Assembly (NCBI RefSeq): GCF_012932915.1
Contig: NZ_VCQU01000001.1
Location: 806,001-870,000 of the forward strand
DNA length: 64,000 nucleotides
Reading direction: 5' to 3'
Source: Antrihabitans stalactiti
GTDB lineage: Bacteria; Actinomycetota; Actinomycetes; Mycobacteriales; Mycobacteriaceae
A program made the position numbers and the translations under genes. Shown piece by piece: positions 6,953 through 57,900 of the stretch; the stretch's first letter is position 1; each line of letters starts with the position of its first letter. A model generated the notes under the pieces. That model saw only the letters and a program-made list of their open reading frames with translations, searched no databases and was not told where the DNA came from.

Positions 6953-6992
6953 GTGCGTGAGTCTGGCCCCCAGAGGGGCCAAACTCACGCAC
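6953..6992. terminator. Palindromic element 2, downstream of proS
   Basis: Arms of 18 bases, GTGCGTGAGTCTGGCCCC and its near reverse complement, enclose a CAGA loop. The single mismatch (plus-strand C opposite A, minus-strand G-U wobble) is at the same stem position as in element 1. It starts 6 bp after the proS stop codon and is followed 65 bp later by the start of the next minus-strand gene, so it probably ends proS transcription. Confidence 0.7.
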
Positions 6993-9527: not shown

Positions 9528-9567
9528 GTGCGTGAGTTTGGCCCCCAGGAGGGCCAAACTCACGCAC
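9528..9567. terminator. Palindromic element 3, downstream of yaaA
   Basis: Perfect 17-base arms, GTGCGTGAGTTTGGCCC and its exact reverse complement, around a 6-base loop. It starts 5 bp after the yaaA stop and precedes the VOC gene by 25 bp. Unlike elements 1 and 2, the stem position that is mismatched there is fully paired here. Confidence 0.7.
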
Positions 9568-9976: not shown

Positions 9977-9989
9977 GGGAGCCACAACT

Positions 9990-10029
9990 GTGCGCGATTT
10001 TCACCCCCGGGAGGGTGAGACGCGCGCAC
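9990..10029. terminator. Palindromic element 4, between convergent VOC and efpA genes
   Basis: Imperfect 17-base arms: left GTGCGCGATTTTCACCC, right arm complement GTGCGCGCGTCTCACCC, with mismatches clustered in the middle of the stem and a loop of about 6 bases. It sits between the stops at 9976 and 10033. It is almost identical to element 5 inside the chelatase gene, forming a subfamily. Confidence 0.65.
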
Positions 10030-10032
10030 GGG

Positions 10033-11511
10033 TCAGCCGCGGTGCGCCGCCTCCTGCGCCTCGTGCGCCAGGGCGACCTGCTGCGGAGTGAATCGGATGA
10101 ACAGCGCGACCGCACCGGCAATGACCGCGCAGCCCGCGCAACCGACGAGAGCGAAGGTGTAGCCCTCGCCGAGTGCCCAGAGTTGATGCGGGTCCATATC
10201 CGACGCCGGACCGTTCGTCCCGCCCAAAGACAACGTTCGCGACGTTGCAGCCGCTCCGATGACGGCGAGGGCGAGCGGGCCGCCGAGGGTCTGCGCAACC
10301 TGCGTGATGGCCGTCAACGGACCGATTTCCGCAGGTCCGACGCCCGCGACAGCACACAGCGGCAACGGAACGACCGCCATGCCGACGCCGAAACCAATCG
10401 CGACGATGGGTACGAAGAGGTTGCCGAGGTAGGTGGCGGTGCCGTCCAGGGTCGACCCGTACAGCAGTCCGGCCACCATGATGGCGCCGCCCGTGATCAC
10501 CAACCAGCGTGCCTGGATATGGACCGCCAGCTTGGACGCCACGAACGCGGACGCACCCATGCCGAACGCGAAGGGGATGAAGGCCAAACCGGCTTTCAAC
10601 GGGCTGTAGCCGAGGATGTTCTGCACGAATTGAGCGACGTAGATCGCCATGCAGAACATGACCGCGCTGGCGAAGAAGATTGCGATGAACGTAGCGACGC
10701 GGTCGCGGTTGGCGAACAGCGAGAAGGGAACCAGTGGATTGTCGGCGTTGCGCTCGACGACGAGGAACACAGCGAGCAGGACCAGGCCGGCGACGAGTGC
10801 GCCGAGCACCCAGCCGCTTCGCCAACCGAGTTCGGGACCTTCGGAAATGCCGAAGACAATCGCCGTGCAGCCGAGAGTCGCAAGAACTGCGCCCTGCACG
10901 TCAAGCGACAGCCGTTCGTGATCGGTCTCGCGCAAAGCCAAGAAGGCCAGGCCGACGATGACGAAGCCGATGGGCACGTTGATCAGGAAGATCCAGCGCC
11001 ACGAGACTTGAGTCAGCGCGCCGCCGACGATCAGGCCGGCAATCGAGCCGATTCCCGTCATGGCGGCAAAGATCGCAAAGGCTTGATTTCGTGCCGGACC
11101 CGGCGCGAACGTCGTGGCAACCAGGGCCAGCGCGGTCGGTGCAGCGATCGCGGCGCCAGTGCCCTGGAGTGCCCGCGCGGCGACCAGTGTCGCTTCGTTG
11201 AAAGCCAGACCGCACAGCAGCGACGACACGGTGAACATGGCGACGCCGACGATGAACATCTTTTTGCGGCCCCATGCGTCGCCGATGCGGCCACCGAGCA
11301 GCATCAAGCCACCGAATGCCAGTGCGTAGGAAGTGACTACCCAGTTGCGACCGGCATCGGAGAGACCGAGGTCGTCTTGCAGCCGAGCGAGCGCGAGGTT
11401 GGCGACGGTGCCGTCGAGCACCACCATCAACTGCAGACCGCTCAACACGATGATCGCGAGGCCGAGGACGCGCGTTGTCGCTGGATGAGTCACTGCACTG
11501 TGGTCAGACAC
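10033..11511 (-). CDS. efpA: MFS efflux protein, EfpA-like (QacA/DHA2 family)
   Basis: A 492-residue 14-TM inner-membrane transporter. Seen are LQLMVVLDGTVANLALARLQ (TM1 with the DHA2 D1 motif), GGRIGDAWGRKKMFIVG (motif A), and GIGSIAGLIVGGALTQVSWRWIF (motif C). The assignment to EfpA rests on sequence character and on position: in M. tuberculosis efpA lies, from memory, between proS and the cysG/cob genes, exactly as here. EfpA in mycobacteria is an essential-type transporter linked to drug tolerance and lipid export. The start is GTG at 11511, 22 bp after the stop of the uroporphyrinogen methyltransferase gene, so it is probably the last gene of the cobalamin run. Confidence 0.85.
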   Translation of the reverse strand: MSDHSAVTHPATTRVLGLAIIVLSGLQLMVVLDGTVANLALARLQDDLGLSDAGRNWVVTSYALAFGGLMLLGGRIGDAWGRKKMFIVGVAMFTVSSLLCGLAFNEATLVAARALQGTGAAIAAPTALALVATTFAPGPARNQAFAIFAAMTGIGSIAGLIVGGALTQVSWRWIFLINVPIGFVIVGLAFLALRETDHERLSLDVQGAVLATLGCTAIVFGISEGPELGWRSGWVLGALVAGLVLLAVFLVVERNADNPLVPFSLFANRDRVATFIAIFFASAVMFCMAIYVAQFVQNILGYSPLKAGLAFIPFAFGMGASAFVASKLAVHIQARWLVITGGAIMVAGLLYGSTLDGTATYLGNLFVPIVAIGFGVGMAVVPLPLCAVAGVGPAEIGPLTAITQVAQTLGGPLALAVIGAAATSRTLSLGGTNGPASDMDPHQLWALGEGYTFALVGCAGCAVIAGAVALFIRFTPQQVALAHEAQEAAHRG

Positions 11512-15114: not shown

Positions 15115-16947
15115 TCAGGCGACCGCCTTGGTTGCGCTCACGACGGCCTGCGGCGTCAACTCGTCCAGTCGAAGGTAGGTGCCGCGCAGTTCGGTGGCGA
15201 GTTCGCGCGCGAGGCCGAGCCGGATCATGCCGCGTTCGCAGTCGACGACCACACTCGCGACGTTCTCCCGCGCGAGCAGTCGACCGGCGACCTTCGCGCG
15301 GTGGACAGGGTCGACCCCACCCGTGGCGCGGCCGTCGGTCAGCGTCACCACGAGGGCGCGACGAAGCGGATCGCGAACACGCTCTCGCAGGACGACCGCA
15401 CGCGCACGCAACAGTCCTTGTGCCAGCGGGGTTTTCCCGCCCGTCTGCATCGAGGCCAGCCGCCGCACGGCGATCTCGACCGACGAGGTCGGAGGCAGCA
15501 CAAGCGCCGCTTTCTGACCTCTGATGGTGATTACCGCGACCTTGTCCCGGCGTTGGTAGGCGTCGCGAAGCAACGACACGACCGCACCGGTGACCGCACT
15601 GAGGCGGTCACGCGCGGCCATCGAGCCGGAAGCGTCGACGACGAAGATCACGAGATTGCCTTCCCGGCCTTCTCGATGGGCACCGCGGAGGTCCTGGGGT
15701 TCGAGCACCAGCCGGCCCTGCACACGTCCGCGCGCGTGCTGGTGCGACGCAGCCGCGAACACAGTGCCGAGGAGGTGCAGTCCTTTGTCTCGCTCGGTCG
15801 TCGGGCGAACGACGCGACCATGCCGCCCCTGGGCACGCGAACGACGACCGGGCGCACCTTCCCCGACGCCAGGCACTTCCAGCCGCGGCGGCTTCACAGA
15901 CTGTGCGCGATTTTCACCCTTGGGAGGGTTAGACGCGCGCACGGGGGGCTGGCCGCCCCCGTCGGGGCCACCGTCATCTGGACCGTCTCCGCCATCCGGA
16001 CCGTCACCGTCGCCTTCCGGCTCAGGCGGCTGTGGTTGCTCGTCTGCATCACGCAACGCCTCGTCGAGAGCTTCGGGGTCCAAGCCGGGCTCGTCGAAGG
16101 GGTCACGGCGACGACGGTGCGGGAGGGCAAGTTCACAGGCGACGCGGACGTCTTCCTCCTCCACTGCAGTCGCACCACGCCAAGCAGCGTGGGCGGTCGC
16201 GGTGCGAGAGATGACGAGGTCCGCACGCATGCCGTCGACGTCGAACGCCGCACACACCGACGCGATGCGGCGCAGTTCGATGTCGCTCAACTCGACCTCG
16301 TCGAGTGCGTCGCGCGCCGCTGCGATCTTCTTGGCTAGGAGACGGTCGTCCTCGGCGTAGCGGGCGGCGAAGGCGTCGGGGTCGCGTTCGTAGTCCAGCC
16401 GACGTCGAACCACCTGCATTCGCACGTCCACATCTCGCGACGCAGTGACGTCCACGGCCAAGCCGAAGCGGTCCAGCAGTTGTGGCCGCAACTCCCCTTC
16501 TTCGGGGTTCATGGTTCCCACCAGCACGAAACGCGACGGATGCGAGTGGGAGACGCCGTCGCGTTCGATGTGGACTCGGCCCATCGCCGCGGCGTCGAGC
16601 AACACGTCGACGAGATGGTCGTGCAACAGGTTCACTTCGTCCACGTACAGGACGCCCTCATGGGCGGCCGCGAGCAAACCAGGCTGAAATGCCTGCTCGC
16701 CGTCGCGCAACACCTTCTCGAGATCCAACGACCCGATCACACGGTCTTCGGTGGCGCCGATCGGTAGCTCGACCAGCCGCGACCGACGCGGACCGGCCTC
16801 GTCGGCGACGGGTGGCAACAGCGCAGCCAATGCGCGGACGATCGTGGATTTGGCGGTCCCCTTCTCGCCCCGCACGAGAACACCACCGATGCCTGGGTGC
16901 ACGGCGCACAGCACCAGCGCCAACCGCAGCCGATCCTGACCGACCAC
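15115..16947 (-). CDS. Mg/Co chelatase: fused AAA+ (ChlI-like) and VWA (ChlD-like) subunit
   Basis: About 610 residues. The AAA+ domain has [20 protein letters not shown] (Walker A), [18 protein letters not shown] (Walker B) and [20 protein letters not shown] (sensor/Arg finger region). An acidic, Pro/Gly-rich linker follows ([20 protein letters not shown]), then a VWA domain with [11 protein letters not shown] (MIDAS DxSxS). Given neighbours cobO and cobB, a role in cobalt insertion is likely, although the large CobN subunit is not in the window. Two oddities: palindromic element 5 is embedded in frame in the linker (15903-15942), and the start is unclear. Homologues begin just before the segment [10 protein letters not shown], yet no ATG/GTG/TTG exists there in frame; GTG at 16947 is the nearest usable codon, and the frame stays open further upstream through a 30-bp tandem repeat. 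Confidence 0.85.
15903..15942. repeat. Palindromic element 5, embedded in the chelatase coding sequence
   Basis: Left arm GTGCGCGATTTTCACCC; the complement of the right arm reads GTGCGCGCGTCTAACCC. This is one base different from element 4 and has the same pattern of internal mismatches. On the minus strand it is read in the chelatase frame as [13 protein letters not shown], within the low-complexity linker between the AAA+ and VWA domains. The reading frame is not broken. Confidence 0.8.
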
Positions 16948-16971
16948 CGCGCTGAACGGAAACTCAGCCCC

Positions 16972-17031
16972 GGCGACATCCCCCGTCGCTTCGCTCGCCC
17001 CGACGACATCCCCCGTCGCTTCGCTCGCCCC
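16972..17031. repeat. 30-bp direct tandem repeat at the chelatase start region
   Basis: Two copies of a 30-base unit (16972-17001 and 17002-17031), differing at a single base (GGCGAC versus GACGAC at the unit start). It occupies the gap between the GNAT stop codon and the first conserved chelatase residues. Translated in the chelatase frame it gives two copies of [10 protein letters not shown] 10-residue unit keeps the frame. Confidence 0.8.
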
Positions 17032-21635: not shown

Positions 21636-21639
21636 CGCT

Positions 21640-21681
21640 CGTGAGTCTTTTAGGAGTCCAGGGACTCCTAAAAGACTCACG
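21640..21681. terminator. Palindromic element 6, between convergent mtr and hydrolase genes
   Basis: Perfect 20-base arms, CGTGAGTCTTTTAGGAGTCC and its exact complement, with only AG between them. It begins 4 bp after the mtr stop and ends 5 bp before the opposing gene's stop. The outer half (CGTGAGTCT) matches elements 2 and 3; the inner half is different and AT-richer. Confidence 0.75.
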
Positions 21682-21686
21682 ACCGC

Positions 21687-24363: not shown

Positions 24364-25908
24364 TCGTGAGTCTTTTAGGAGTCCCTGGACTCCTAAAAGA
24401 CTCACGAGGGTGGGTAGGTCGGCGGGCGGGCCGTTGTGGATCAGGCCGAGGATTGCGTCGATGTCGACGTGCTGCTCCACCAGGTCGGCGAGCAGATCGA
24501 GCTGGGCTTCGCGAACCGCAGCGACCGAGGTATCCGGCGCGACGGTGAAACCCGTTCTGCCACTGTGCCGTGCAACGTCGGTGAGGAAGGTGCGACGAAA
24601 GTCGTCGCTCTCGAAAAGGCCGTGCCAATGAGTTCCGACGACCGCCCCGCGCACACTGCCTTCGGGCTGACCGTCGGACTCGAGCAAGGCCGTGTCGCCG
24701 TTGTGCGTCACGCGACCGTGGTGAATCTCGTAGCCGTGCACCGGAGTTCCGGCCGCGTGCCCCTCGACGCGGGCCAGGACTTTCGCATCCTCGAACTTGA
24801 CCGCCAGGTCGAGCGCATCCAGGCCTGCCACCTCACCGGCACCGGATTCGACGTCGTCGACGATCGTGCGACCCAGCATCTGGTACCCGCCGCAGATGCC
24901 GAGGATCGGCTTTCCCGCAGCCGCCCGATCGACCAGCACATCCGCAATCCCGTTGGCGCGCAACCATGCCAGGTCGGCCACGGTCGACTTGCTGCCAGGC
25001 ACCACGACAAGGTCCGCACCGGCCAACCGAGACGCTTCGCTCACCCAACGGACCGAGACTCCCGGCTCACACGCCAGGGCCTCGATATCGGTCGAATTCG
25101 AAATCCGTGGCAGCCGAATCGCAGCGACGGTCAGCCACTCGCTCCCGTACGGCTTTCCGGGCCGACCGACGGCAGTGTCGGCGACCGTGCCCAACGAGTC
25201 CTCCGCGTCGAGCCACAGGTCGTTGCTGAACGGAATGACGCCATACGTGGGCCGACCGGTGAGCTCGCGTAGGCGCACCAAGCCCGGCTCCAGCAGCGAC
25301 ACATCGCCGCGGAACTTGTTGATCACAAATCCGGCGATCAGCGCTTGGTCTGCTTCGTCGAGAATCGCAACTGTGCCGAACAAGTGGGCCAGCACTCCCC
25401 CGCGGTCGATATCGCCGACCACGATCACGGGCAACGATGCCTCCTGCGCCAGCCCCATGTTCGCGAGATCGGTTGCGCGCAAATTGATCTCGGCAGGCGA
25501 ACCGGCACCCTCACAGATCACGATGTCGAATTCCGCTCGCAGCGAAGCCAATTCAGCCGCTACGACGGACCGCAGCTCCTCGCGACGGGTGAAGTAGTCG
25601 CGCGCACCGACCGACCCCACGGCCCGACCGCGGACCACCAACTGAGACGTGCGGTCACTGCCCGGTTTCAACAGCACGGGATTGAACCGGACGCTCGGTT
25701 CCAGACCGCAGGCCTGCGCCTGCAGCGCCTGCGCGCGGCCGATCTCGCCGCCGTCGAGCGTCACCACAGAGTTGTTGGACATGTTCTGCGCCTTGAACGG
25801 CGCGACGGAAAAGCCCCGCCGCGCGAGCAACCGGCACAGCCCGGCGACGACGACACTCTTGCCCGCATCCGACGTGCAGCCGGCGACGAGCAGGGCGCCA
25901 CCGATCAT
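24358..25908 (-). CDS. cobQ: Cobyric acid synthase (glutamine-hydrolysing)
   Basis: A 516-residue amidase adding amides at corrin side chains b, d, e and g. The N-terminal ATP-binding domain has [20 protein letters not shown] and [13 protein letters not shown]; the C-terminal triad-type amidotransferase has [13 protein letters not shown] (nucleophile Cys) and a late His in [11 protein letters not shown]. It is longer than usual because the last 17 residues ([17 protein letters not shown]) are encoded by palindromic element 7 and its flanks. Its stop overlaps the stop region of the opposing hydratase. The start overlaps the map stop (ATGA), so it is coupled to map. Confidence 0.94.
24365..24406. 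repeat. Palindromic element 7, forming the 3' end of cobQ
   Basis: Perfect 20-base arms CGTGAGTCTTTTAGGAGTCC and complement around CT; identical in the arms to element 6. It begins 1 bp after the stop of the plus-strand hydratase, yet the minus-strand cobQ frame runs through it and ends just beyond at 24358. It may still act as a terminator for the plus-strand gene. Confidence 0.8.
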
Positions 25909-26801: not shown

Positions 26802-27791
26802 CTAAACGCCCAGCGACGCCGCGATGATCGGCCAGGAGCGATGGAGATCGTCCTGCCAGTAATCCCACGAGTGCGTTCCTGCAGGCCGGAAGTTGTAGGT
26901 CGCCGGGATGCCGAGCGAGTCGAGCTTGGCTTGCAACGCCCGGGTGCACGCGTTGACGATCGTCTCGATGCTGCCGCCGACGAGCATCTGGCTCAACAGC
27001 ATCCCTGGACTGCCCTCGACGTTGCGGCCACCGAGATTGTCGAACTGACCAGGCAACCCGTTGCCAGCCGAGATGTAGAGCGCCGTACCGCGCAACTTGT
27101 CGGCATTGAGCAGCGCGTCGTTCCGTAGCCATTCCGGACTTCCTTCGGGGCCCCACATGTTCATCGTGTTGCCACCGCCACGGACCTCGACGACAGCACG
27201 CACGAACGCGGAGCCGAGGGGATCGCTGGTGCCGGCGCACCCGCTGTACGCCGATGCGCTGCGATAGAGACCGGGCGCCTGCTCGGCGAGCGAGAGCAAC
27301 GCGCTGGCCGACATGGAGATGCCGGCGATCGCGTTGAGACCGTTCGTCCCGAGCATGGAATTGATGGCAGGCGGGAGTTCCTGCGTGAAGAAGGTCGTCC
27401 ACTTGTTCCGGCCGAGAACCGGGTCGTCGCGCAGCCAATCGGTGTAATAGCTCTGCTTGCCGCCGATCGGGATCACGACGTTGACCTTTTTGTCGGCAAC
27501 GAAGCTCGCGACGTCGGTATGCACCAACCAGTCCCACGGCGGTTCTTCGCCGCCTGCTGCACCGTTGAGCAGGTAGAGCGTCGGCCGCGGCACACTCGCA
27601 TCGTTCGGCCGAATGATGTTGAGACGGATATCTCTACCCATGGCGGGCGAATAGACCGACACGTCCATGACGTTGGGCGCCGGGTCGGCGGACGCACCAC
27701 CAGCGGCAGCGACCGGCGCCACGAGGGCAGCGACGAGCACTGCGGTCTGCGCGCCACGCTTCAGTGCGCGGGTGAAATCAGCGCGATGCAA
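26802..27791 (-). CDS. Secreted antigen-85/mycolyltransferase-like esterase
   Basis: A 329-residue exported protein. The N-terminus ALKRGAQTAVLVAALVAPVA with AAAGGASADPAPN is a Sec signal peptide, cleavage likely after ASA. The mature part shows the esterase D/antigen-85 fold: VYSPAMGRDIRLNIIRP, YLLNGAAGGEEPPWDWL, nucleophile AIAGISMSASALLSLA (G-x-S-x-S), and GTHSWDYWQDDL with the catalytic His, the hallmark of mycolyltransferases. It would transfer mycolates to trehalose or arabinogalactan in the cell envelope. The start used is TTG at 27791, which overlaps the end of NRPS1 by 14 bp; this makes cotranscription with NRPS1 likely. Whether it acts on the NRPS product is unknown. Confidence 0.85.
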   Translation of the reverse strand: MHRADFTRALKRGAQTAVLVAALVAPVAAAGGASADPAPNVMDVSVYSPAMGRDIRLNIIRPNDASVPRPTLYLLNGAAGGEEPPWDWLVHTDVASFVADKKVNVVIPIGGKQSYYTDWLRDDPVLGRNKWTTFFTQELPPAINSMLGTNGLNAIAGISMSASALLSLAEQAPGLYRSASAYSGCAGTSDPLGSAFVRAVVEVRGGGNTMNMWGPEGSPEWLRNDALLNADKLRGTALYISAGNGLPGQFDNLGGRNVEGSPGMLLSQMLVGGSIETIVNACTRALQAKLDSLGIPATYNFRPAGTHSWDYWQDDLHRSWPIIAASLGV

Positions 27792-30700
27792 GGTTGGTAC
27801 CCACCTTCGATCCGATGTTGCCAGGACTGCTTGTACTGCTGAGTTCGAGCGAAGCGTCGACGATCGGACCGATCGTTGCCAACGCCGCCACCGTCGTCAT
27901 CCGCCAGTGTGTCGCCTCGACCGCGTGGTTGCGAACGTCGCCGCTGACGAACGGACGCCAAAGATCTGCCAATCTTGTTCCCGTCGGATCGTCCTCGACC
28001 GCCGTGAAGAACACAAGGTCTCCTTCGAAGACGGTCGGCTGATGCCGCCGAAGTACGTCCGATGTGCCGATCGCGGTGCGCAACATCCGCTCGATTCGTC
28101 CCGCGGTCAGTGCTGCGAACGGACCGGGCAACTGGGCGAGGAACGCGGCAGCCGTTTCCGGTTGCAGCTCGGCCGTGTCGATCTCCAGACCGTCCAGCTC
28201 GATGCCGAGACCGCCGAGCAGGTCGGTCGGCGCGGGTGCTGCCGCGGACATGTCGTCGAGCTCCACGCCGAACCCGCTGTCGAGCAACCCGAGGAACGCC
28301 ACCTGGTGCCCCAGCACCTGCAACCGGACCGCGATCGCATGAGCGATCACGCCACCGAGCGACCAACCCAGCAAGCGATAGGGTCCGGCGGGTTGGATCG
28401 AGAGGATTTCGCGGACATAGCGATCGGCCGACTCATCGATCGTCGGCGCGCTCACGACGTCCTCGGTCACCGACGGCGACTGCAGCCCGTAGATCGGCCG
28501 GTCGTGGTTCAGATGCGGAATGAGACCCGTGTAGCACCACGACAGTCCGACGACCGGATGGATACAGAACAAGGGACCCGCAGCCGACGCACCGACGCGC
28601 ATCGGCAGCACCACATCCAGGGACGAGTCGCGACCGGTCTGGTCGGCCTCGCTGATGCGGCGCGCGATCGAGGCCGGCGTCGGGTCGGTGAACAGCCACA
28701 GCAGCGGCACATCGATCCCAGCGTCGTCGCGAAGCTGCGCGACGAGGCGCGTTGCAAGCAAGGAATTCCCGCCTAGGGCGAAGAAGTTGTCGTCGAGGCC
28801 GACGGATTCGACGCCGAGCAGCACACCGAACGCCGAGGCGACGGAATGTTCGAGCGGGGTGCGCGCACCCCGATGGATCGCAACGGCGAAATACGGCTCC
28901 GGCAGGGCTTTTCGGTCCAGCTTGCCGGTCGACGACACCGGCAGCTCGTCCAGCACGACGACCGTCGACGGCACCATGTAACTCGGCAACACCGATCGCA
29001 GCCAGACTGTCACAGCGTCCTTGTCGATGTCGGTCCCCCCGACGTACCCGACCAGTTGCTGACCGAGTCTCGGATCGTCGCGCACCACAGCGACGGCGCG
29101 GACCACTCCTGCGAATCGACTCATTGCCGATTCGACCTCACCCAATTCGACTCGCTGCCCTCGCAGCTTCACCTGGAAGTCGGTGCGTCCCACGTACTCG
29201 AGCACACCGTTCGCCGTCCAGAAGGCCAGATCGCCTGTGCGATACATGCGTTCACCGACGTGGAACGGGCTTGCGACGAACCGATCAGCCGTCAGATCAG
29301 GACGGCCCACGTACCCCTGCGCCAGTTGCGCACCGGCGAGATACAACTCTCCTGGCACGCCGATCGGGACTGGGCGCAATCGCTGGTCCAGCACGAAAAC
29401 CTGTGTGTTCCAGACGGGTACACCGATCGGCACCGACGATCTGCCTGTGCCGTTCGGCTCGAAATAGGTGACGTCGATTGCCGCCTCGGTCGGTCCGTAG
29501 AGGTTGTGCAGAGCCGCATTCGGCAGCACCGCGCCGAACACGTCGGCCGTGTGCGTCGGCAATGCCTCCCCGGACGCGACGACGTGCCGCAACGACACGC
29601 AGTCCAGCACGGCCGGTTCCGCCAGGAATGCACCCAACATCGACGGCACGAAATGCGCGACACTGACGCGCTCGTCGACGATCAAACGAACCAGATACGC
29701 GGGATCGCGATGCCCGTCGGGGGCAGCGATCACCAGGCGCGCGCCAGTGTGCAACGGCCAGAACAACTCCCACACCGATACGTCGAACGTCGCGGGCGTC
29801 TTGAAGAGCACCGCATCGTCGCGATCGATCGGGTACTCGTGCTGCATCCACGCGAGCCGGTTCACGACAGCGCTATGGCTGACGGTGACGCCCTTCGGCC
29901 GACCCGTCGACCCTGACGTGAACAGCACGTACGCCGCATTGCCCGGCCGCAGTGGACTGCGTCGGTCTGCGTCGGTGATCGGCGAGCCGGCGTAGGAATC
30001 GAGACCAACGACGTCCGAGGCATGAAGCACGACAATCGGTTCCGCGGATTCGAGCAGCAACGCTGTTCGCTCGTGCGGCTGATCCTCGTCGATCGGCACG
30101 TAGGCGGCACCCGTCTTGATCACCGCATAGACGGCCACCAGCAACTCCACGGACCGACCGATCGCGATGCCGACCAACTCTCCAGGGCCTGCCCCTGACC
30201 CGATCAGCTGCCGCGCCAAGCGATTCACACGCGCGTCGAACTCGCCGTAGGTCAACGACGTGCTACCACACACCAATGCCACGGAATCCGGTGCAGCGCT
30301 GACCTGTTCGTCGAACAGATCCACCAGCGTCGCCACCGGCACGGCGTGGTCGGTCGCATTGCGGTCCAACAGAATGTGCGAGCGCTCATCGTCGGATGTG
30401 AGTTCGAGGTCACCGATCGGAGTTGCCGCATCGGTGCCGACCTGGTCGAGAATTCGCGCGTACATGTCGGCGAATCTGCGCACCGTGGACTCGTCGAACA
30501 GGTCGGTGGCGTAGGTGAACGAAGCATCGAGCAGGCCCGGGTTGCCGTCCTCGTCGAATCGGCTGCTCACGGTGAGGTGCAGATCGAATTTGGCTACGGG
30601 AAGCTCGAATTCGATGGGAGCGACGGCAAGACCGTGTAGTTCGCCAGCGACCACGGGAAGGTTCTGCAGGGTCAACGCCACCTGGAACAACGGGTGTCGC

Positions 30701-33700
30701 GCCGTCGACCTGGTCGGGTTGAGGACTTCGACCAGCCGCTCGAACGGAATATCGCTGTGCCCGAACGCTGCGAGGTCGACATCGCGGGCGTGATCGAGCG
30801 TTGCCGCGAACCCCGCGGCGGGATCCAGCGTGGTCCGCAACACGAGCGTGTTGACGAACATGCCGATGAGCTGGTCGAGTTCGGGCTCGCCGCGCCCTGC
30901 GACCGGTGCACCGATCGCCACATCCGTGCTGGCCGTCAGCCGCGAGAGCAACACCGCGAGAGCCGAATGCAGAACCATGAACAACGAAGAGTTGTGCTGC
31001 GACGCCAGCGCGAGGAGTGAGTTGTGCCGGTCGGCGTCGATGGCGAAGTTCACCGTAGCGCCGGCATAGCTCTGCAACGCCGGTCGCGAGCGGTCCGTCG
31101 GCAGGTCGAGCTGGTCGGGAAGGTCGGCGAGTTGCTTTGTCCAGTAGGCGATCTGCTCGGCTGCGAGCGACTCCGGGTCGTCTTCGCGGCCCAGAATGCG
31201 TCGCTGCCACAAGCTGTAGTCGGCGTATTGGACGGGTAGCGGTTGCCAGGTCGGCGCGGTGCCTGCCGACCGCGCAAAGTACGACGCCATGACGTCGGTC
31301 GCGAGGGGCGCGAGCGACCAGCCGTCCGCACAGATGTGATGGACGACGATCACCAGGACGTGCTCGTCCGGTGAACCGGCAACCTGGAACAGCGCCGCAC
31401 GCAGCGGCACTTGCTCGGTGAGGTCGAACCCGGCCATCGCGAGTTCGGCTGTGGCACGGCGAATCCGGGACTCGTCGGCCGTGATCGGCGTCAGGGTCGG
31501 GACCACGTCCGCTGCGGGCCTGATCACCTGATGCGGTCCGTGCCCGGACTCGGGATAGACGGTCCGCAGCGATTCGTGCCGGTCGACCACATCGGCGAAC
31601 GCCGCCTGCAGTGCGGCCACATCAAGTGCGCCGGTCAGGCGAAGCGCGAGCGGGAGGTTGTTGGCCCCCGACGTCGGGTCGAGCCGGCCCAGGAACCAGA
31701 TCCGTTGCTGTGCAGGCGATAACGGAATTTCAGCAGGCCGCTCCCCTGCGACGAGTCGTGGTCGATCGGTGCGCGCGACCTCGTGCACGGCGACGGCGAA
31801 CGCCTGCACGGTCGGTGCGTCGAACAACACCCGCACCGAAACATGGCGGCCCAGTTCGGCTCCGACGCGCGCAACGACCTGGGTCGCCGAAAGCGAGTTA
31901 CCGCCGAGGGCGAAGAAGCTGTCGTCCAAGCCGACCCGCTCGGCTCCCGTGACATCGCCGAACACGCCGGCAACGACAATTTCGGTGTCGGTGGTCGGCA
32001 GCCGGAAACTGTGGGTCGCCGAACCGAAGACGGGTTCGGGCAGCGCCTTTCGGTCTAGCTTGCCGGTCGCGGTCAGCGGGACATCGGCAATAGGAATGAT
32101 TTGCACCGGCACCATGTACGCGGGCAACACCCGGCGAAGCTCCTCGAGTGCGGCACCAGGGTCGACCGTCGCACCTGGGAACGGGCGAATGTAGGACACC
32201 AGCACAGTCTGTCCCGCAACCTCGTGCCCGACCGTGACCGCGAATTCCACGCCCGGATGCGCGCAGAGCGCGGCATCGATCTCGCCGAGCTCGATGCGCA
32301 GGCCACGGACCTTCACCTGGAAATCGCGGCGTCCGACGAACTGCAGCTCGCCGCTCGCCGACCAGCGCACCATGTCGCCCGTTCGGTACATGCGGTCGCC
32401 CGGGTCGCCGAGGCCGCTGGCGACGAATCGTTCCGCGGACAGCGCCGCTCGCGACAAATAGCCTCGCGCCAACGCCGGACCGGCCAGGTACAGCTCGCCG
32501 ACGACGCCCACCGGTACCGGGTGCAGCCGCGAATCCAGTACTGCAACACCGAATCCGCGGACCGGACGACCGATCGACACGGGCGCGCCAGCGACCAACG
32601 GGTCTGTGCAGGTCGCCCACACCGTCGTCTCGGTCGGACCGTACCCGTTGAACATGTGCCTGCCGGGCGCCCAGCGGGCGACCAGTTCGGGCGGGCAGAC
32701 ATCCCCGGCGACGATGACTGTCGTCACCGTGTCGATGCCCCGATGGTCGACCGACCCCAGTACGGCGGGCGTGACGACAACATGCGTCACCGCGGCGTCG
32801 ACGAGTAACGAGCCGAGTTGCGCCCCACCGATCACGTCCTGCGGAGCGAAGACGACCGTCGCTCCCACACCGAACGCCATCAGATTCTCGAAAACCGTCG
32901 CATCGAAACTGGGCGATGCCGCGTGCAGGACACGGGAATCGGACGTGACCGCGAACCGGGTGCGTTGCTCGTCGACGAGGTTCGCCAGTCCGCGTTGGGT
33001 GACGCCGACGCCTTTGGGGAGCCCCGTCGATCCCGACGTGAAGATCACGTACGCCAGGTTGCCGGGCAGCACGGGCGCGCGGCGCTCGCTGTCGGTGAGC
33101 GGTGCGGCCGACTCGCTCGACGAAGCATTGTCGGCCTCGTCGAAAGTCGACCAGTGCACGGCGCTCGGCAGGTCTACGCCCGCCTCCGTGAGTCCGAATG
33201 CCGCGGCGGAATCGGCGAGAATCCGAACGATCCGCTCCTGTGGCAACCTCGCGTCGACCGGCAGGAACGCCGCGCCCGTCTTGGTAACGGCCCACATCGC
33301 GACGACGAATTCGACCGAGCGTCCAAGTCCGAGGGCCACACACATGTCGGAGCCGACGCCCAACCCGATCAGCCAGCGAGCGAGCCTGTTCGAGCGCTCG
33401 TCCAGTTCACGGTAGGTCGTCTCCACACCGTCGGCCCACAATGCGATCGCGTCGGGATCGCGGTTCGCGGCAGCCGCAAACACCTCAGGCAACGTTCGCT
33501 CGTCCAGACACGGCGCCCCGCGCACCGGCGCGAGGGCCATGCGGTCAGCAGTTTCGAGGATGTCGATGTCACCCACCGGCACTGTGGGCTCGGCGACGAC
33601 CGCAGCAAGAATCCGGACGAACATCGCGGCAAAGGACTGGACCGTCGAGTCGTCGAAAAGGTCTGTTGCGTAGGTGAAGACGCCGCGATAGCCGTCACCG

Positions 33701-36700
33701 GTTCGGTGCGGAACCAGCGTGAGTTGCAGATCGAACTTTGCGACGTGCGGATCGATCAGCTCGATCTGTGTACGCAGCCCAGGTAGATCGAACTCTGTGA
33801 GCGCCGCCTCGTCCAGCAGGAGTGCGACCTGGAACAGCGCGTGCCGACCACGGTCACGTGGCATTCCGAGGACGTCGACCAACTTCTCGAATGGCACGGC
33901 GCTGTTGCCCAACGCAGCGAGATCGACGTCCCGCGTTCGTGCCACTATCTCGGAAAATCCTGCTGCCAAACCGATTTCGGTCCGCAGGACGAGAGTATTG
34001 ACGAACATGCCGATGAGTTGATCGAGTGCGGGATCGCCACGACCGTCGACTGCCGTCCCGATGACGATGTCGTCACTGTCGGAGAAGCGGCGCAGCAACA
34101 CCGCGAGCAGTGCATGCGCGACCATGAAGACGCTGGCGTTGTTGTCGCGCGCGAGATCGCGCATGCCGCGATGGAGTTCTGCCGAGATCGCGAAATCGAC
34201 TGTGCCACCGCGGTGCGACGGCTCGGCGGGACGTGGCCGGTCCGTCGGGAGGGCTGTCCGGTCCGGCAGTCCGGCCAGGGTCCGACGCCAGTACGCCAAC
34301 TGCTCGGCCATCGCCGATCCGGCTTCGCCTTCACTGCCGAGTAGCTCCAACTGCCACAACGTGTAGTCGGCATACTGCAACGGGATCGGGTCCCATTGCG
34401 GCGCTTCATGGCTCGCGCGTGCGCTGAACGCCCGCATGACGTCGATGGCCATGGGCGGTATCGAACCGCCGTCCGATGCGATGTGATGCAACACGACAGC
34501 GAGGACGTGCTCGTTCGAGTCGAGGCGGAACAGCGCCAGCCGCAACGGCATGTCGGTGGTGATGTCGAACCCACGCATTGCGAATTCAGTTAGCCGGCTC
34601 GGCAATTCGCCGGCAGTGACCGGCCGGACGGCCAGGTCGGCGACAGTGCCGTCGGCAGCATGAATTAGCTGGTACGGACCCTGCGCCGTCTCAGGATAGG
34701 TCGTCCGCAGCGATTCGTGCCTGGCGACGACGTCGGCCAATCCCGCTCGCAGGGCAGCCACATCCAGTTCGCCGACGAACCGGACGGCGAACGGCAAGTT
34801 GTACGCAGGAGATTCCGGGTCGTATCGGTTGAGGAACCAGATCCGCTGCTGCGCAGGCGAAAGCGGCACGCGATCCGGCCGTACGCGCGGACCGAGCACC
34901 GGCCGCTTTCGGCCCGACTTGGCAACGTCGGCAAGCCGAAGGGCGAGTTCGCCTGGGGTCGGCGATTCGAACAACAGCCGCAATGGCACATCTATGTCGA
35001 GTGCCGCCCCGATCCGCGAGGCGACTCTCGTTGCGATCAGCGAATTTCCACCGATTGCGAAGAAGTTGTCGTCGAGACCCACGCGGTCGCGACCGAGCAC
35101 CTCGGCCAGTGTCGCGACGACGGCCTCCTCGACCGCGTTGGTTGGCGCACGGTATTCCGGCGCCGAGTAGTGCGGAACCGGCAGTGCCTTGCGGTCGAGT
35201 TTGCCGGTCGCTCCGAGCGGAAACTGCTCCAAGACAACGATGTCCGGCGGCACCATGTAGCTGGGCAAGCGCGCAGTGAGGCGCTGGCGGAGCACACCGA
35301 CATCCACGACGATGTCGTCGCCCGCTCTCGTGACGTACGCGACCAACCTGGCCTGGCCCGGCGCGTCCTCTCGAACAAGCGCGACGGCCTGACCGATCTC
35401 GTACTGATCGAGCAATGCCGCTTCGATCTCACCGAGTTCGATCCGGAGACCGCGAAGCTTGACCTGAAAGTCCGTGCGGCCCAGGTATTCCAGGGCGCCA
35501 TCGCGGTTACGCCGAACTAGGTCACCGGTCCGGTACATGCGCTCACCCGCAGGTCCGGCTGGGTCGGCGACGAAACGGTCGGCGGTGATGCCCGGTCGGC
35601 CCTTGTAGCCGCGCGCCAGTTGCTCACCTGCCAAATACAGTTCACCGGCAACGCCGACCGGCACGGGGTGCAGCCGCTCGTCGAGGACGTACGCGTCGGT
35701 GTTCCAGACCGGCCCGCCGATCGGAATCGTGGCATAGGTTGTGTCAGCGGCTATTTCGAAGTAAGTCGCGGTGACGGTGACCTCGGTCGGACCGTAGAAG
35801 TTGCCGAGCCGAAGGCCCCGTTCGGTCGCGCTGCGGGCAGTGGTGGGCGAAATCGCCTCACCACCGACGTAGATCATGCTCAGGCTGTCGGGCAGCGTGA
35901 GTTCCGGCGTCGTCAGCACGATGTCCAACATCGACGGGACGAACTCGGCGATCGTGACGCGCTCGCGGTCGATCACGTCGATCACGTGGGCGGCATCGAG
36001 GTGACCGTCGGGGCGCAGGACAACCAGCCGACCGCCGACCCCGAGCACGGCGAATACTTCCCACACCGACACGTCGAACGTCACCGGCGCTTTGAGCAGC
36101 ACGCGATCGGCTGCGGTGATCGGCAGGTCGGTCTGCATCCAGCCCAGCAAGTTGACGGCCGCGCGATGGGAGACTTCGACACCCTTCGGCCGACCGGTCG
36201 ATCCCGACGTGAAGATCACGTACGCCGCGTTAGACGCGTGCAGTCGCGCGACTCTGTCGACATCGCGGACCGGCGTCGAGTCGACCTGCGATAGGTCAAG
36301 AGTGTCGACCTCGAGCGAGACGTAACCGTCGACCGCGAACCGGCCCGCCGTCGTCAATACACAAGCGCATGTGGCCGATTCGAGAACGTAACGCGTCCGC
36401 TCGACCGGCTGGTCGGGGTCGATCGGAACGTACGCCGCGCCCGCCTTGACGACGGCGTAGATTGCCACGAGGAGTTCGACGGAACGGTCCATGGCAACCG
36501 CGACCGTCGACTCCGGACCGATGCTGTTCGCAATCAACAGCCGTGCCAGCTGGTTTGCCCGGCTGTCGAATTCGGCATAGGTAAGGGTCGCGTCCTCGGC
36601 AACGATGGCGACGGCATCCGGACTGCGCAGCACCTGCTCGTCGAACAGGTCCAGGATTGTCAGGCCCGGCACCTCGACTGCAGCGCCGACGAGCGCCGAG

Positions 36701-39700
36701 GGCTCCTCACTTCCGAGGACAGCGATGTCACCGATCGGGGTAAGTGGCTGTTGGACAACCGAATCGAGGATCAGGCCGAACCGCCGCACGAACCCACGCA
36801 CGGTCTGCTCATCGAAAAGATCGGTGGCGTAGTTGAACACGACACCGATTCCGCCGACCTCGGGCCGTTCGGTCACTGTGACGCGCAGGTCGAACAGCGC
36901 GAGTCCGGTGTCGATCTCCTCGGTCTGGGCACTCAATCCAGGCAATTCGACCGCCGTCGTATCGACGTTCGCGGCAGCGAGCATCACTTGAAACAGCGGG
37001 TGATGCGCAGTCGAGCGAGCCGGATTCAACACCTCGACCAGTCGCTCGAACGGGATATCGTTGTGCCCGAAAGCACCGAGCGCGACCTCGCGGCACGTAG
37101 ACAGCAGAGTGGCAAACGACTCGCCGGGATCGACCTGCGTGCGCAGCACCAGGGTGTTGACGAACATGCCGACGAGATCGTCCAATTCGCGTTGGCCGCG
37201 GCCGGCGACAGGCGTGCCGACTGCGATGTCGCGACCTGCGCCGAGCCTGTTCAACAGCACCGTCAACGCAGCGTGCATGACCATGAATACGGTCGACTCA
37301 TGCTGTTGTGCAAGCACTTTGATGAGCTGGTGGGCATGCGGATCGATGTCGAATTCGATGCTCGCGCCACGGTACGACGCGACCGGTGGCCGAGGCCGGT
37401 CCGTCGGCAATTCGATGCTGTCGGGCAGCCCGGCCAAGGTTGCCTTCCAATACTCGAGCTGACTACCCGCGAGCGAGTCGACATCCTCGTCGCTGCCGAG
37501 CAGGTCATGGTGCCACAGTGAGTAATCCGCGTACTGCACAGGAAGTGGAGCCCACACCGGTTCGACACCAGCACATCTCGCGACATACGCAGCCACGACA
37601 TCTTTGGCCAGCGGACCCATCGACCAGCCGTCGGCACTGACGTGGTGGACCACGATCGCAAGGACATTTTCGTCGGGGCCTGACGCGACGAGCAGCGCTC
37701 GGACCGGTACCTCGTGCACGAGATCGAAGCCGCGAGAAGCGAATTCACGGAGGATTTCGGATAGTTCCGCGGGGCCGCTTGCCGTGACGACTGGCAGCGC
37801 GAGGTCGATGTCGTCGACGACGACCTGGTGCGGTCCAGCATCGGAATCCGGATACAGCGTCCGCAGCGATTCGTGCCGAGCGACGACATCACGCATCGCA
37901 GTGGCGAGCGCCGATACGTCGAGCGCTCCGGTCAGCCGCACGGCGAAAGGAATATTGGCTGCGGCGGACGACGGATCGAGCCTGTTCAGGAACCACAGCC
38001 GACGCTGGGCAGGTGAGAGCGGAACGATGCTCGGGCGCGGACCGACCGCCAACCGGCGTGCGGAGCTGCCGCCCAATGCGAGTTGCGCGTCCACGCGCGA
38101 CGCCAGACCGGCAACCGTCGGCGCCTCGAACACGTCACGGACGACCACGTCGGCCGACAGTGCCGCGCTTGCGCGAGCAGCCAACTGCGTTGCGGTCAAA
38201 GAGTTTCCGCCGAGCTCGAAGAAGTCGTCGTCGATACCGACGGCGCTCGCACCCACGATGTCGGCCATCGTGTCTGCGATCAGTCGCTCGGTGACGGTGC
38301 GCGGCGCGCGATACGGTGCGTCGGTGGTGAAGACCGGCTCGGGCAACGCTTTTCGGTCGAGCTTGCCGACCGGCGTGAGTGGAATTCGGTCGATCTCGAT
38401 GATGTGCGCAGGAACCATATGCGGCGCAAGTGAACCGGCGATATGGGCGCCCAATTCACCGACGTCGACCGTGCACCCGTCGGCAGCGACGACGTAGGAC
38501 ACCAGACCGGCGGCCCCACGCGTCGGCGTGTGCAGCACCGTCGCCGCGAATCCGATCGTGGGATGTGTTACGAGCGCTGCGTCGATCTCACCGAGTTCGA
38601 TGCGGAAACCACGCACCTTGACCTGCGAGTCTGTGCGACCGATGAATTCGAACGATTCGGCGCCACGGGTCCAGCTGACCGCGTCACCCGTTCGGTACAT
38701 CCGCTCCCCCGGTGCACCCCACGGGTTTGCCACGAATCGCGCAGCAGTCAATCCAGCACGGCGGTGGTAGCCGCGTGCCAGTCCGGCGCCGGAAATGAAA
38801 ACTTCACCGACCGCACCGACCGGCACGGGCCGCAAGCGCGAGTCGAGCACGACCATGCCCGTTCCGCCGATCGGTCCGCCGATCGCGGCGCCATCACCCG
38901 GAGCGACGGCATCGCTGATCGCCGACATGATCGTCGTCTCCGTCGGCCCATAGGCGTTGAAGAATCGTCTCGCGCCCGCCCACCGATCGATGAGGTGCGT
39001 CGGCACCGTTTCGCCACCGACCAGGAGATGAGTCAGGCAGTCGAGCCCCGTCGGATCGACAGACGCGAGCGCGGACGGCGTCATGAACGAATGGGTCACC
39101 TGGTGCTCGGTGATGACAGCGTGCAATTCGTGGCCGCCGAACACACCGGGCGGCGCGATCACCAGCGTCGCGCCTGCTCCGAAAGCCAGGAGGTATTCGA
39201 AGACGGACGCGTCGAAGCTGGGCGAGGACACATGCAGGACGCGCGATTCGCTGCTCGTCGCGTACCGCTCGCGTTGCTCGATCGCGAAATTGTGCAGTCC
39301 CGAATGCGTGACCGCTACACCTTTCGGGCGACCCGTCGATCCCGAGGTGAAGATGAGGTAGGCGACGGCGTCCATGTGTACATCGACGGAGACTGCGCTG
39401 GGCTCCCCTGAGCCTTCGCCGTCATCGATGACCAACCAGTCGAGGGTCGCAGGCAGGAGGTCATGGTCGGCCGCGGTCGTGATGCCGATGATCGCCCCGG
39501 AGTCGTCGAGCATGTGCGCGACGCGCTGCGAGGGATAGTCGGGATCGACCGGAACGAATGCGCCGCCGGATTTCGCGACGGCCCAGATTGCCACAATCGA
39601 TTCGATGGAACGTCGAAGTGCTACCGCGACATAGGTTTCCGGTCGCACACCGCGCTCGACCAAGAGCGCGGCCAGTCGATTCGACCGGTCGTCGAGCTCG

Positions 39701-44739: not shown

Positions 44740-44789
44740 CCCTCGTGAGTCTTTTAGGAGTCCAGGGACTCCTAAAAGACTCACGAGGG
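44740..44789. terminator. Palindromic element 8, between convergent DUF445 and SDR genes
   Basis: Perfect 24-base arms: CCCT joined to CGTGAGTCTTTTAGGAGTCC, and the exact complement, around AG. It lies between stops at 44732 and 44794. The core is the same as in elements 6 and 7, with a longer outer stem. Confidence 0.75.
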
Positions 44790-52216: not shown

Positions 52217-52268
52217 ACCCTCGTGAGTCTTTTCGGAGTCTATAGACTCCGAAAAGACTCACGAGGGT
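52217..52268. terminator. Palindromic element 9, between convergent phnV-like and ABC-2 permease genes
   Basis: The longest copy: perfect 26-base arms with no loop bases, beginning ACCCTCGTGAGTCTTTTCGG. Compared with elements 6-8, two base pairs of the inner stem differ (A-T to C-G and C-G to T-A), both with matching changes on the other arm, so pairing is kept. Confidence 0.8.
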
Positions 52269-54969: not shown

Positions 54970-57900
54970 CAGGACTCCACTCGTGGGGCGAGGTATTCAT
55001 TGACTACGCGTGCGATTTCGGGAAGAACTGCGGGAGAGGTCATTCTGTCGTGGTTGGACTCGACGAAGTAATTCGTGATTTCACCCGAAACGACGCCCCG
55101 CCACGACTCCACTGCCGAATTCAGGTCGTCGTTCTCGAGCGTGGGTGTGAAGAACACCATGTCGCCGTCGTAGGTCGGCGCATCGTATCCGGCAAGCATC
55201 CACTGAGATCCGTTGTAGCAGTGGGTCAGTCGATCGATGAGCACTGCATCCACAAACGAAGCACCTGGAAGCTTTTCGCGAAGAGCCGCTGCTGCCTCTT
55301 CTGCGGTGAGGTCCTCACGCTCGGCTTCGAAGCCGAAGATCGGCGCGTACTCGTAGACGAGCTGGCCCGGCGTGATCTGCGGACCAGGATCGGCGGACCG
55401 CTTGTCCAGGCCCGCATCGAGGTTCGCGAGCAGGTTGACCTCCTCGCCCTCCTCGCGCAGCTTCGCGGCGATCGCCTGGGCGATGAATCCGCCGAGCGAC
55501 CACCCGAGCACGTTGTACGGACCGTTCGGCTGGACGGCGCGCATTTCGGTGACGTAGCGGTCGGCGTACGCGTAGAGCGTGCGTAACGGGTCGCCACCGG
55601 TGAGTTCGGGAGCCTGCAGACCGTAGATCGGCCGTCCTTGATCGATCAGTTCGGCGAATCCGGCGTAGCACCAGGCCAATCCGGACGCTGGGTGAACGCA
55701 GAACAACGGCTCCCCGTCGCCGGTCGCCCTGATCGGCAGGATCACACCGAGGAATGCCTCGGCAGGATCGTCACTGGTCACGCCCGCTCTGGCGTTCGCT
55801 TCGGCAGCCTCGGCCAAGCCCTCGACCGTGCGGCGCTCGAACACGTCGGCCGCGGAGATGACGAGACCGCGCTCCTTCGCCTTTGAGACGAGCCCGATCG
55901 TCATGATGCTGTCGCCGCCGAGGTCGAAGAACGAATCGTCGGCGCCGACTTGCGCCGCGCCGAGCAATTCCGCGAACACCTCGGCGAAGGCGATCTCGTT
56001 CTCTGTCGTCGGAGCCCGGAACTCGCGCGCCTCGAACACGGGCGCAGGCAACGCCTTTCGGTCCAGCTTGCCGACCGCGTTGATCGGAATCGCGTCCAGC
56101 GCCACGATCGAACTCGGCACCATGTAGTTGGGCAGCGTCGCGCCGACCCGCTCTTTCAGGTCGGCAATGTCGAGTGTGACACCTTCTGCCGGAACGACAT
56201 ACGACGCAAGAACCGTGGCCCCTGTCGGGCCTGGCACACCCATTGTCGTCGCGAACTCGATGTCGTCCTCGCGCATGAGGGCGGCGTCGATCTCCCCGAG
56301 CTCGATTCGCAAACCGCGCACCTTGACCTGGAAGTCACTGCGCCCCACGTAATCCAACTTCAGATCGTGGGTCCATCGGACGACGTCGCCGGTGCGATAC
56401 ATCCGCTGGCCGGGATCGTAGGGATGGGCGATGAAACGGCTCGCGGTCAGGTCCGGGCGGTTGTGATAGCCGCGCGCCAGCGACGAACCGGCGATGTAGA
56501 GCTCGCCTGCCACGCCTATCGGGACCGGACGCAACCGTGCGTCGAGCACCAACGACGTCGAGCCGTGCACCGGACCACCGATCGTGATCGGCTCGCCTGG
56601 GACCAGTGGGTTGATGCCGGTGGCAACGATCGTGAATTCGGTTGGTCCGTAGAGGTTCACCATCGTGCGTCCCGGCGCCCACCGCGACACGAGGTCCGCA
56701 TTGACGGCTTCGCCACCGACCGCCAGGACGTCGAGACCGTCGACCTCCGTCGGGTCGAGTGTGGTCAACGCAGAGGGCGTGATCAGTGCATGCGACACCT
56801 TCTCGCGCGTCATCAACCGCGCCAAATCGGAGCCGCCGAACACATCAGCAGGCGACACGATGAGCGCCGCGCCGGAACCGTAGGCCATCAGCACCTCGAA
56901 CACCGATGCATCGAAGCTCGGCGACGCAACGGCGAGGACGCGTGACGACGAGTCGATGCCCATCCAATCCTGCACCATCGCAACGACGTTCATCAGCCCG
57001 CTGTTTGTGACGACAACGCCCTTCGGCAGTCCCGTCGAGCCTGAGGTGTAGATCAGGTACGCGGCGCTGTCGAGATGGATCGGGCTGGTCCGGTCTGCGT
57101 CGGTAATCGGTGCCGACGAAATCTTCTCGAGCCGGTCCGCCAGCGCGGGATCGTCCATGACGATCCAGGACGCGGTGTCGGGCAGATGATCTCGATCGGC
57201 GGCCATGGCGAGTCCGGCGGTTGCCCGGCTGTCGTTGAGCATGTGTTCGATCCGCTCGGGCGGATGATTCGGATCGACCGGAACGTAGGCGGCGCCGGTC
57301 TTGATGACAGCCCACACACCGAGAATGGACTCCATCGACCGTTTCAGCGCGAGCGCTACGACCGTCTCGGGACCTGCCCCCGCGTCGATCAGCAACCGCG
57401 CCAACTGATTCGAGAGTTCATCGAGTTCGCGGTAGGTCAGGCTGTCGCGAATCGAGTGCCGACCGGACAACTCGCCGTACGTCATCGCCGGCTTGTCGGC
57501 GTTGGCCGCCGCTACGGTGGCCAACATCTGCGCGAACGTGACCGGCTCCGGCGCGGCCGGACCGTGCACGGGAACGAGCGCTGCGAACTCGTCGTCGTCG
57601 AGAAGATCGACGGTACCCACGACGACGTTGCGGTCGGCACACAACGCATCGATGATCCGCGTGTACCAACCACCGAATCGGCGAGCCGTCTCCGACTCGA
57701 ACAAGTCGGTGGCATAGGTGATCTCGCCCTCCAACCCCTCTGGAGCGTTGTCGGCACCGAACTTCTCCCGCAACGTCAACGACAGATCGAACTGCGACGA
57801 ATCCCGTTGCAGGTCTTCGACGGTGACGGTCAATCCGCCGAGATCGATCACCGGCTCATCGAAGTTCTGCAGCGACAACGACACCTGAAAGATCGGATGA

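Follow-up and report, generated by a model that had tools for sequence, protein, structure and literature searches.

Does the palindrome that lies in frame within a cobaltochelatase-type gene of Antrihabitans stalactiti belong to that gene, or to a repeat that has spread through the genome? The palindrome, element 5, is an imperfect one of 40 nt at positions 15903-15942 of the window (the whole 64,000-nt stretch of DNA under analysis). It reads GTGCGCGATTTTCACCCTTGGGAGGGTTAGACGCGCGCAC and lies in frame inside an uninterrupted minus-strand ORF that ends at 15115. This ORF (15115-16968, minus strand) is of the cobaltochelatase AAA+/VWA type: it matches TIGR02442 (putative cobaltochelatase) with 730.7 bits, below the cut-off of 779.45, has the Pfam domains AAA_lid_2, Mg_chelatase and VWA_2, and is directly followed downstream by genes of the CobO and CobB/CobQ types (Pfam matches CobA_CobO_BtuR and CbiA/GATase_3). 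Its start codon is uncertain because of a 30-nt direct repeat (..CCCGTCGCTTCGCTCGCC..) at the ORF start, at 16986-17030; the core of that repeat, TCGCTTCGCTCG, occurs five times on the plus strand of contig C1, which includes the window, and two of the five are those at 16986-17030. Element 5 lies between the AAA_lid_2 and VWA domains, where the palindromic core encodes a 13-residue stretch (chelatase residues 343-355) preceded by P and followed by Q. Letter counts over 102 asymmetric copies of the repeat, together with the translation, extend this to 15 codons (15901-15945), made up of the core and the conserved family flanks, CC before and AG after. In a predicted model of the protein, pLDDT is below 50 over residues 323-396. 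The initial annotation had placed a palindrome in frame at a tolerant site of this gene, and both the ORF, which is uninterrupted, and the predicted model bear this out.

Near-identity to an intergenic palindrome, element 4 (9990-10029, between convergent genes), had also been claimed. The two sequences agree at 37 of 40 positions and differ at three, and the window holds two matches to the element at three mismatches or fewer, itself included, against a mean of 0.00 in 100 shuffles. The likeness is real, but element 4 is not alone in it: with 86 bases around element 5 as the query, at least 50 places in the genome are among the matches listed (40 of 128 first-look candidates were scored), and the best of those listed, apart from the query itself, is C1:966866 with 96% identity over 45 nt. 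It could be argued that the in-gene match is ordinary coding sequence whose resemblance to the repeat is due to chance or to convergence in linker composition. The linker is of low complexity, hypervariable and unremarkable in length, and the residues PVRE stand at the Pks13-like site described below in the congener G003 too, a genome where the repeat was not found. However, no match as close as that to element 4 is expected in shuffled sequence and the conserved flanking letters of the family match as well, so that this explanation, already contradicted at the DNA level, has next to no probability. Judged on the sequence, the DNA match to the family, flanking letters included, is the decisive evidence of the origin of element 5.

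The repeat to which elements 4 and 5 belong, family I, is abundant in the genome that holds the window (G000; 6.76 Mb in 26 contigs). The family I pattern gave 140 forward matches and a slightly different pattern 151; the palindrome matches both strands, so these counts mean about 140-151 sites. A search of 41 genomes with the first pattern returned matches solely in G000 and in G023 (8 forward, 7 reverse), and the pattern was not found in the congeners G001, G002 and G003, which together with G000 are the four genomes of the genus that were compared. Plasmid and phage collections held no match to a 52-nt query from 9984-10035. Individual copies were described by reading contig C1 completely (1,174,072 nt, including the window) together with stretches around copies listed elsewhere, which gave 119 copies of family I and 48 of a second palindrome, family II; the copies outside C1 come from the matches listed and are not a random sample, and 106 of the 119 fit the ~140-site pattern. 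Besides those discussed individually, the window has by sequence reading a family I copy at 9528-9567, 4 nt behind a plus-strand stop codon.

Every one of the 119 family I copies is 40 nt long, with 38-42 nt allowed in the search, and the unit, which ends in CC/CT and AGT(T), measures 40-46 nt. A conserved and partly unpaired CGTC occupies core positions 8-11, where it is enclosed by an additional outer stem of 7 bp. The mismatches in the stem are themselves conserved, with positions 11:30 paired in 19 and positions 8:33 in 36 of 111 copies, and this points to copying of one sequence, not to selection for a perfect hairpin. The copies also occur as larger units. Doublets at C25:17818 and C23:216892 match over 107 nt including a 19-nt spacer, with two differences, abrupt ends and unrelated flanks, and ten of the 11 adjacent pairs less than 400 nt apart are inverted, nine of these ten with their starts 58-68 nt apart.

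A synteny comparison (101 and 68 gene pairs) covered five distinct spacers with family I or family II copies, in G001 or G003. At C1:806454 (454-493) a family I copy lies between convergent genes in a spacer of 55 nt, where the spacers of G001 and G003 measure 23 and 8 nt; these two genomes lack the element there, and each has a different hairpin, CTGGGAACGG.., at the end of the neighbouring gene. At C1:812953 (6953-6992), where a family I copy follows a minus-strand stop codon at 5 nt, the corresponding spacer of G001 has a palindrome of that genome's own dialect and no hairpin was found in the orthologous spacer of G003. A family II palindrome (TCGTGAGTCTTTT..) between convergent genes at C1:827639 (21639-21682) sits in a spacer of 51 nt; the orthologous spacers, 5 nt long in G001 and 11 nt long in G003, yielded no hairpin. 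At two further sites it is G001 that bears its own element and G000 that has the short spacer (90 vs. 38 nt and 51 vs. 16 nt). At C1:781908 (family II) the spacer of 105 nt has a counterpart of 124 nt in G003, which is not shorter, and at C1:652529 the spacers are 7 vs. 13 because both stop codons lie within the element.

Several traces of a moving agent were looked for. Flanking identical words of 2-9 nt, as left by target duplications, showed no excess over 119 copies and 16 choices of unit ends. The Y1 transposase domain (Y1_Tnp, PF01797) had no match in G000, with 5 of 14 control genomes positive. With a MITE of a resident IS in mind, neighbouring copies 400-4000 nt apart on C1 were also inspected by eye; the ORFs that they enclose resemble normal genes of the host. 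Our preferred explanation, to which we give a probability of about 0.78, is that element 5 represents a REP-like palindromic repeat specific to this lineage, which is dispersing in this genome as units of ~46 nt and inverted doublets of ~107 nt, and which is kept within genes rarely, at flexible sites with an open frame.

The position of the copies relative to genes was analyzed with gene calls from a home-made codon-usage finder, whose start positions are approximate; a few distances between -40 and -57 probably reflect erroneous calls. Family I copies lie between convergent genes in 49 cases, between tandem genes in 58 and between divergent genes in 6, with 4 more flagged in genes and 2 at the ends of the stretches read; convergent or tandem spacers thus hold 107 of the 113 classified intergenic copies. 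Divergent spacers account for 37% of the intergenic sequence on C1; against that share, the copies strongly avoid them (p = 3e-15 over the full set, 9e-7 within C1). Most copies are found from -31 to +25 nt of the upstream stop codon (95 of 119 in family I, 40 of 48 in family II), several of those outside this range being second members of doublets, and family I copies in tandem spacers follow the upstream stop at a median of 7 nt. The called stop codon lies inside the element in 37 of the 167 copies of both families. Read in frame, the copies at gene ends encode predicted protein tails: at C1:652529 a host protein of 631 residues ends in ..CARALPSQG from the element, compared with a 624-residue orthologue in G001 (86% identical) that stops 7 residues earlier, and at C1:1139698 the element-derived tail is PVRASHPQRG.

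The preference for 3' ends fits a mobile repeat, and it fits a terminator as well. Family I could consist of transcription terminators or mRNA 3'-end stabilisers under selection, the in-gene copies being accidents of gene conversion or cases where a gene has grown over a terminator. In addition to the very strong placement, the hairpins are strong (-40.7 kcal/mol for the RNA fold of 448-499, an intergenic family I copy, and -30.7 for the other intergenic copy folded), and at C1:812953 the copy lies opposite a palindrome of a different dialect in the spacer of G001. However, the hairpins have no U-tract, as TTTT occurs within the next 12 nt in 1 of 156 gene-end readings of family I and in 1 of 71 of family II. 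There is no orientation bias either; an expected orientation with transcription was dropped, with 20 tandem copies lying with and 24 against it and 14 symmetric ones unscored. The conserved unpaired stem positions, the orthologous spacers that yielded no hairpin (for C1:827639 in both G001 and G003, for C1:812953 in G003) and the presence of one doublet at two unrelated loci also speak against this explanation, and published REPs are likewise placed at 3' ends in the account of PMC3733652. We consider it improbable, and the view of the intergenic copies as terminators finds little in the U-tract and orientation counts to lean on.

Compatible with the preferred explanation is a later domestication, in which the family spread as a mobile element, copies at gene ends now take part in termination or mRNA protection, and copies inside genes weakly attenuate. 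The same placement that suits a terminator suits this scenario, and the hairpin of the element 5 coding strand is stable for its composition (-20.5 kcal/mol over 52 nt, z -4.86), but its stem is weaker than those of the two intergenic copies folded and no U-run stands behind it. We regard domestication as rather unlikely. Translating ribosomes probably melt the hairpin within the chelatase gene, and strong attenuation by element 5, a question that the initial annotation had raised for the VWA part and the downstream CobO- and CobB/CobQ-type genes, is therefore unlikely.

How exceptional is the position of element 5? On evidence from both sides, genes contain three of the 119 copies read for family I and not one of the 48 read for family II. 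Nine of the 167 copies were in-gene candidates by coding score, and three were kept. C1:1068727, C1:1151795, C1:781911 (family II) and C22:477446 turned out to lie 2-22 nt behind the stops of genes in another frame, and C22:281432 is intergenic on inspection. The family I copy at C1:1079718 has diverged; it falls within a LuxR-type AAA ORF, in a doubtful 5' portion that probably precedes the real start. A protein-level match at C23:216928 belongs to an intergenic doublet. The three copies retained are the one in the chelatase linker (15903-15942, minus strand), one at C22:213183 in the protein P0002, where it reads PVRASHPPRGEIRAQ, and one at C3:192258 in a Pks13-like polyketide synthase, where it reads PVRESEPQEGENRAQ and lies in the C-terminal extension of the KS, before the acyltransferase domain. 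P0002 has no Pfam or NCBIfam match, and its orthologues in G001, G002 and G003 are 57-64% identical.

All three copies have one orientation and one frame, P-VRxSxPxxGExRA-Q. The same frame is used by a copy of the G003 dialect (G003:C12:238366-238411, reading PVRGWRVPGLANRAQ) that forms, in frame, some of the linker of a PabA-PabB fusion, with the glutamine amidotransferase part on one side and the anthranilate-synthase-I-type part on the other. Most family I copies leave four of the six core frames open (111, 115, 108 and 100 of 119), and the frame used by the in-gene copies is hydrophilic, as is one frame that is not used. The agreement over four cases, three in G000 and one in G003, is suggestive but not proof. 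Going further, one could propose that the repeat super-family is adapted to coding, in that dialects with differing cores keep P-V-R ... R-A-Q in one frame through their outer arms and in-gene copies act as ready-made hydrophilic linkers or tails. This is speculative and, in our judgement, improbable; if true, mobile DNA would regularly provide these actinobacteria with sequence for linkers between domains.

The initial annotation had element 5 adding its residues to the linker, which a clean and copy-specific insertion of 13-14 residues relative to orthologues would have supported. The lengths do not support this. From RDPFDEPG to GVGEGAPG the chelatase has 71 residues here, compared with 83 in G001, 72 in G002 and 69 in G003, and by a second measure the linker is hypervariable, ranging from 68 to 144 residues across 98 measurable chelatase loci with 78 in our protein. 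At the element site P0002 has 28 residues vs. 24 in both G003 and G001, and the Pks13-like protein has 36 vs. 33 in G003, 54 in G001 and 60 in G002, so these two copies lengthen their hosts by at most 3-4 residues relative to the nearest relatives. The PabA-PabB stretch of G003 is 74 residues long, compared with 73-85 in six relatives. Thus, in none of the four cases (chelatase, P0002, Pks13-like, G003 PabAB) was the host seen to be clearly longer than its relatives. Orthologues sharing the residues would have pointed away from a mobile copy; when this was checked, the motif PVR[AEG].{3,8}[NI]RAQ was absent from all frames of the 109 loci retrieved with the chelatase as query. From these comparisons element 5 appears to have taken over the place of linker sequence rather than purely adding length. 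Since the linker has not grown, the copy would have arrived together with a loss of older linker sequence, or have been followed by one.

Family I is accompanied by related palindromes with distributions of their own. For the family II palindrome (TCGTGAGTCTTTTNGGAGTC..), G000 gives 194 forward matches, and G001 a single match with three mismatches. By sequence reading the window contains it at a gene end (24364-24407) and between convergent genes (44743-44786 and 52221-52264), in addition to the copy at 21639-21682. Nine of the gene ends listed take their stop codon from a family II arm, and the proteins end in S in nine of nine cases and in PS in seven of nine. Rfam gave two sub-threshold matches to a microRNA family at a family II palindrome, which were taken as chance. 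At 27778-41151 and about 56000-64000 the window also has a very long ORF and repeats spaced about 3.1-3.2 kb apart, which look like modules of a putative large multimodular synthetase. A third dialect, GTGCGCGGTTGGCGAGTC..GACTCGCCAACCGCGCAC, has 51 matches in G003 and 44 in G023, and a search for its pattern across the taxonomic family was positive in 20 of 201 genomes and 4 of 31 genera, and negative in G000. What the dialects have in common are either the outer arms (GTGCGCG..CGCGCAC, or the family II arms in G001) or the inner cores (GAGTCCAGGGACTC).

Inverted doublets with short spacers are known as REPINs or BIMEs and are tied to RAYT transposases. The doublets of family I have the same form, and one of them occurs as a unit at two loci, but in contrast to the REPIN/BIME-RAYT systems G000 has no match to Y1_Tnp. 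Like intrinsic terminators, family I places a hairpin shortly behind the stop codon; unlike them, it has neither a U-tract nor a preferred orientation. The closest likeness in behaviour is to REPs, which Di Nocera et al. 2013 (PMC3733652) describe as GTAG- or CGTC-tagged palindromes of 20-40 bp in high copy, located mostly between convergent or unidirectional ORFs near the upstream 3' end and forming dimers in opposite orientation. Their termini supply stop codons, for in-gene copies the authors argue that flexible linkers or loops tolerate them, and CGTC-type REPs are described as having no known transposase, alongside the RAYT transposases of which that text also treats (PMC3733652). Family I matches this account (PMC3733652) with its 40-nt core at ~140 sites, its 3'-end spacers and inverted dimers, the stop codons that it supplies and its copies in probable linkers. 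In contrast to the GTAG and CGTC REPs described there (PMC3733652), it has no unpaired terminal tag, its CGTC being internal at positions 8-11, and because the defining terminal tag is absent we did not place it in either super-family. The match to Y1_Tnp missing from its host genome sets it apart from the GTAG type as well. This host is an actinobacterium, and eight actinobacterial name stems have 0 occurrences in the main text of PMC3733652.

The initial annotation had compared the repeat to the Rickettsia palindromic elements (RPEs), and a dispersed family with that kind of behaviour is indeed what we find. RPEs are about 150 bp long with nearly half of them in ORFs, as stated in PMC10969869, and some of them (RPE-4, RPE-6) are short CGTC REPs according to PMC3733652. 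As in these accounts of RPEs (PMC10969869, PMC3733652), family I palindromes lie in frame in unrelated genes and encode a recurrent peptide. They differ from RPEs as described there in their unit of 40-46 nt and in that 3 of 119 copies are in genes, a comparison made by description and not by sequence. Among the matches listed from the open-access literature, no such family was described in Actinomycetota. Taken together, family I is a REP in its behaviour and looks like a new, dialect-forming REP-like variant in actinobacteria.

A simple course of events could account for the distribution. A putative enzyme would copy the units, perhaps via a hairpin intermediate, and copies may survive mostly at the 3' ends of genes because insertions elsewhere get removed. 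Retention inside a gene would be rare, as it needs both an open frame and a flexible site, and element 5, with its 15 predicted residues in the AAA+/VWA linker, would be such a case.

Palindromic repeats in frame within genes are familiar from Rickettsia and from many Proteobacteria; our results add an actinobacterial lineage, in which related species have dialects of their own and no REP-type tyrosine transposase was found. How REPs that have no known transposase are moved thereby becomes testable in another group. The copies in linkers and at protein ends are also natural experiments on how these parts of proteins take up foreign sequence.
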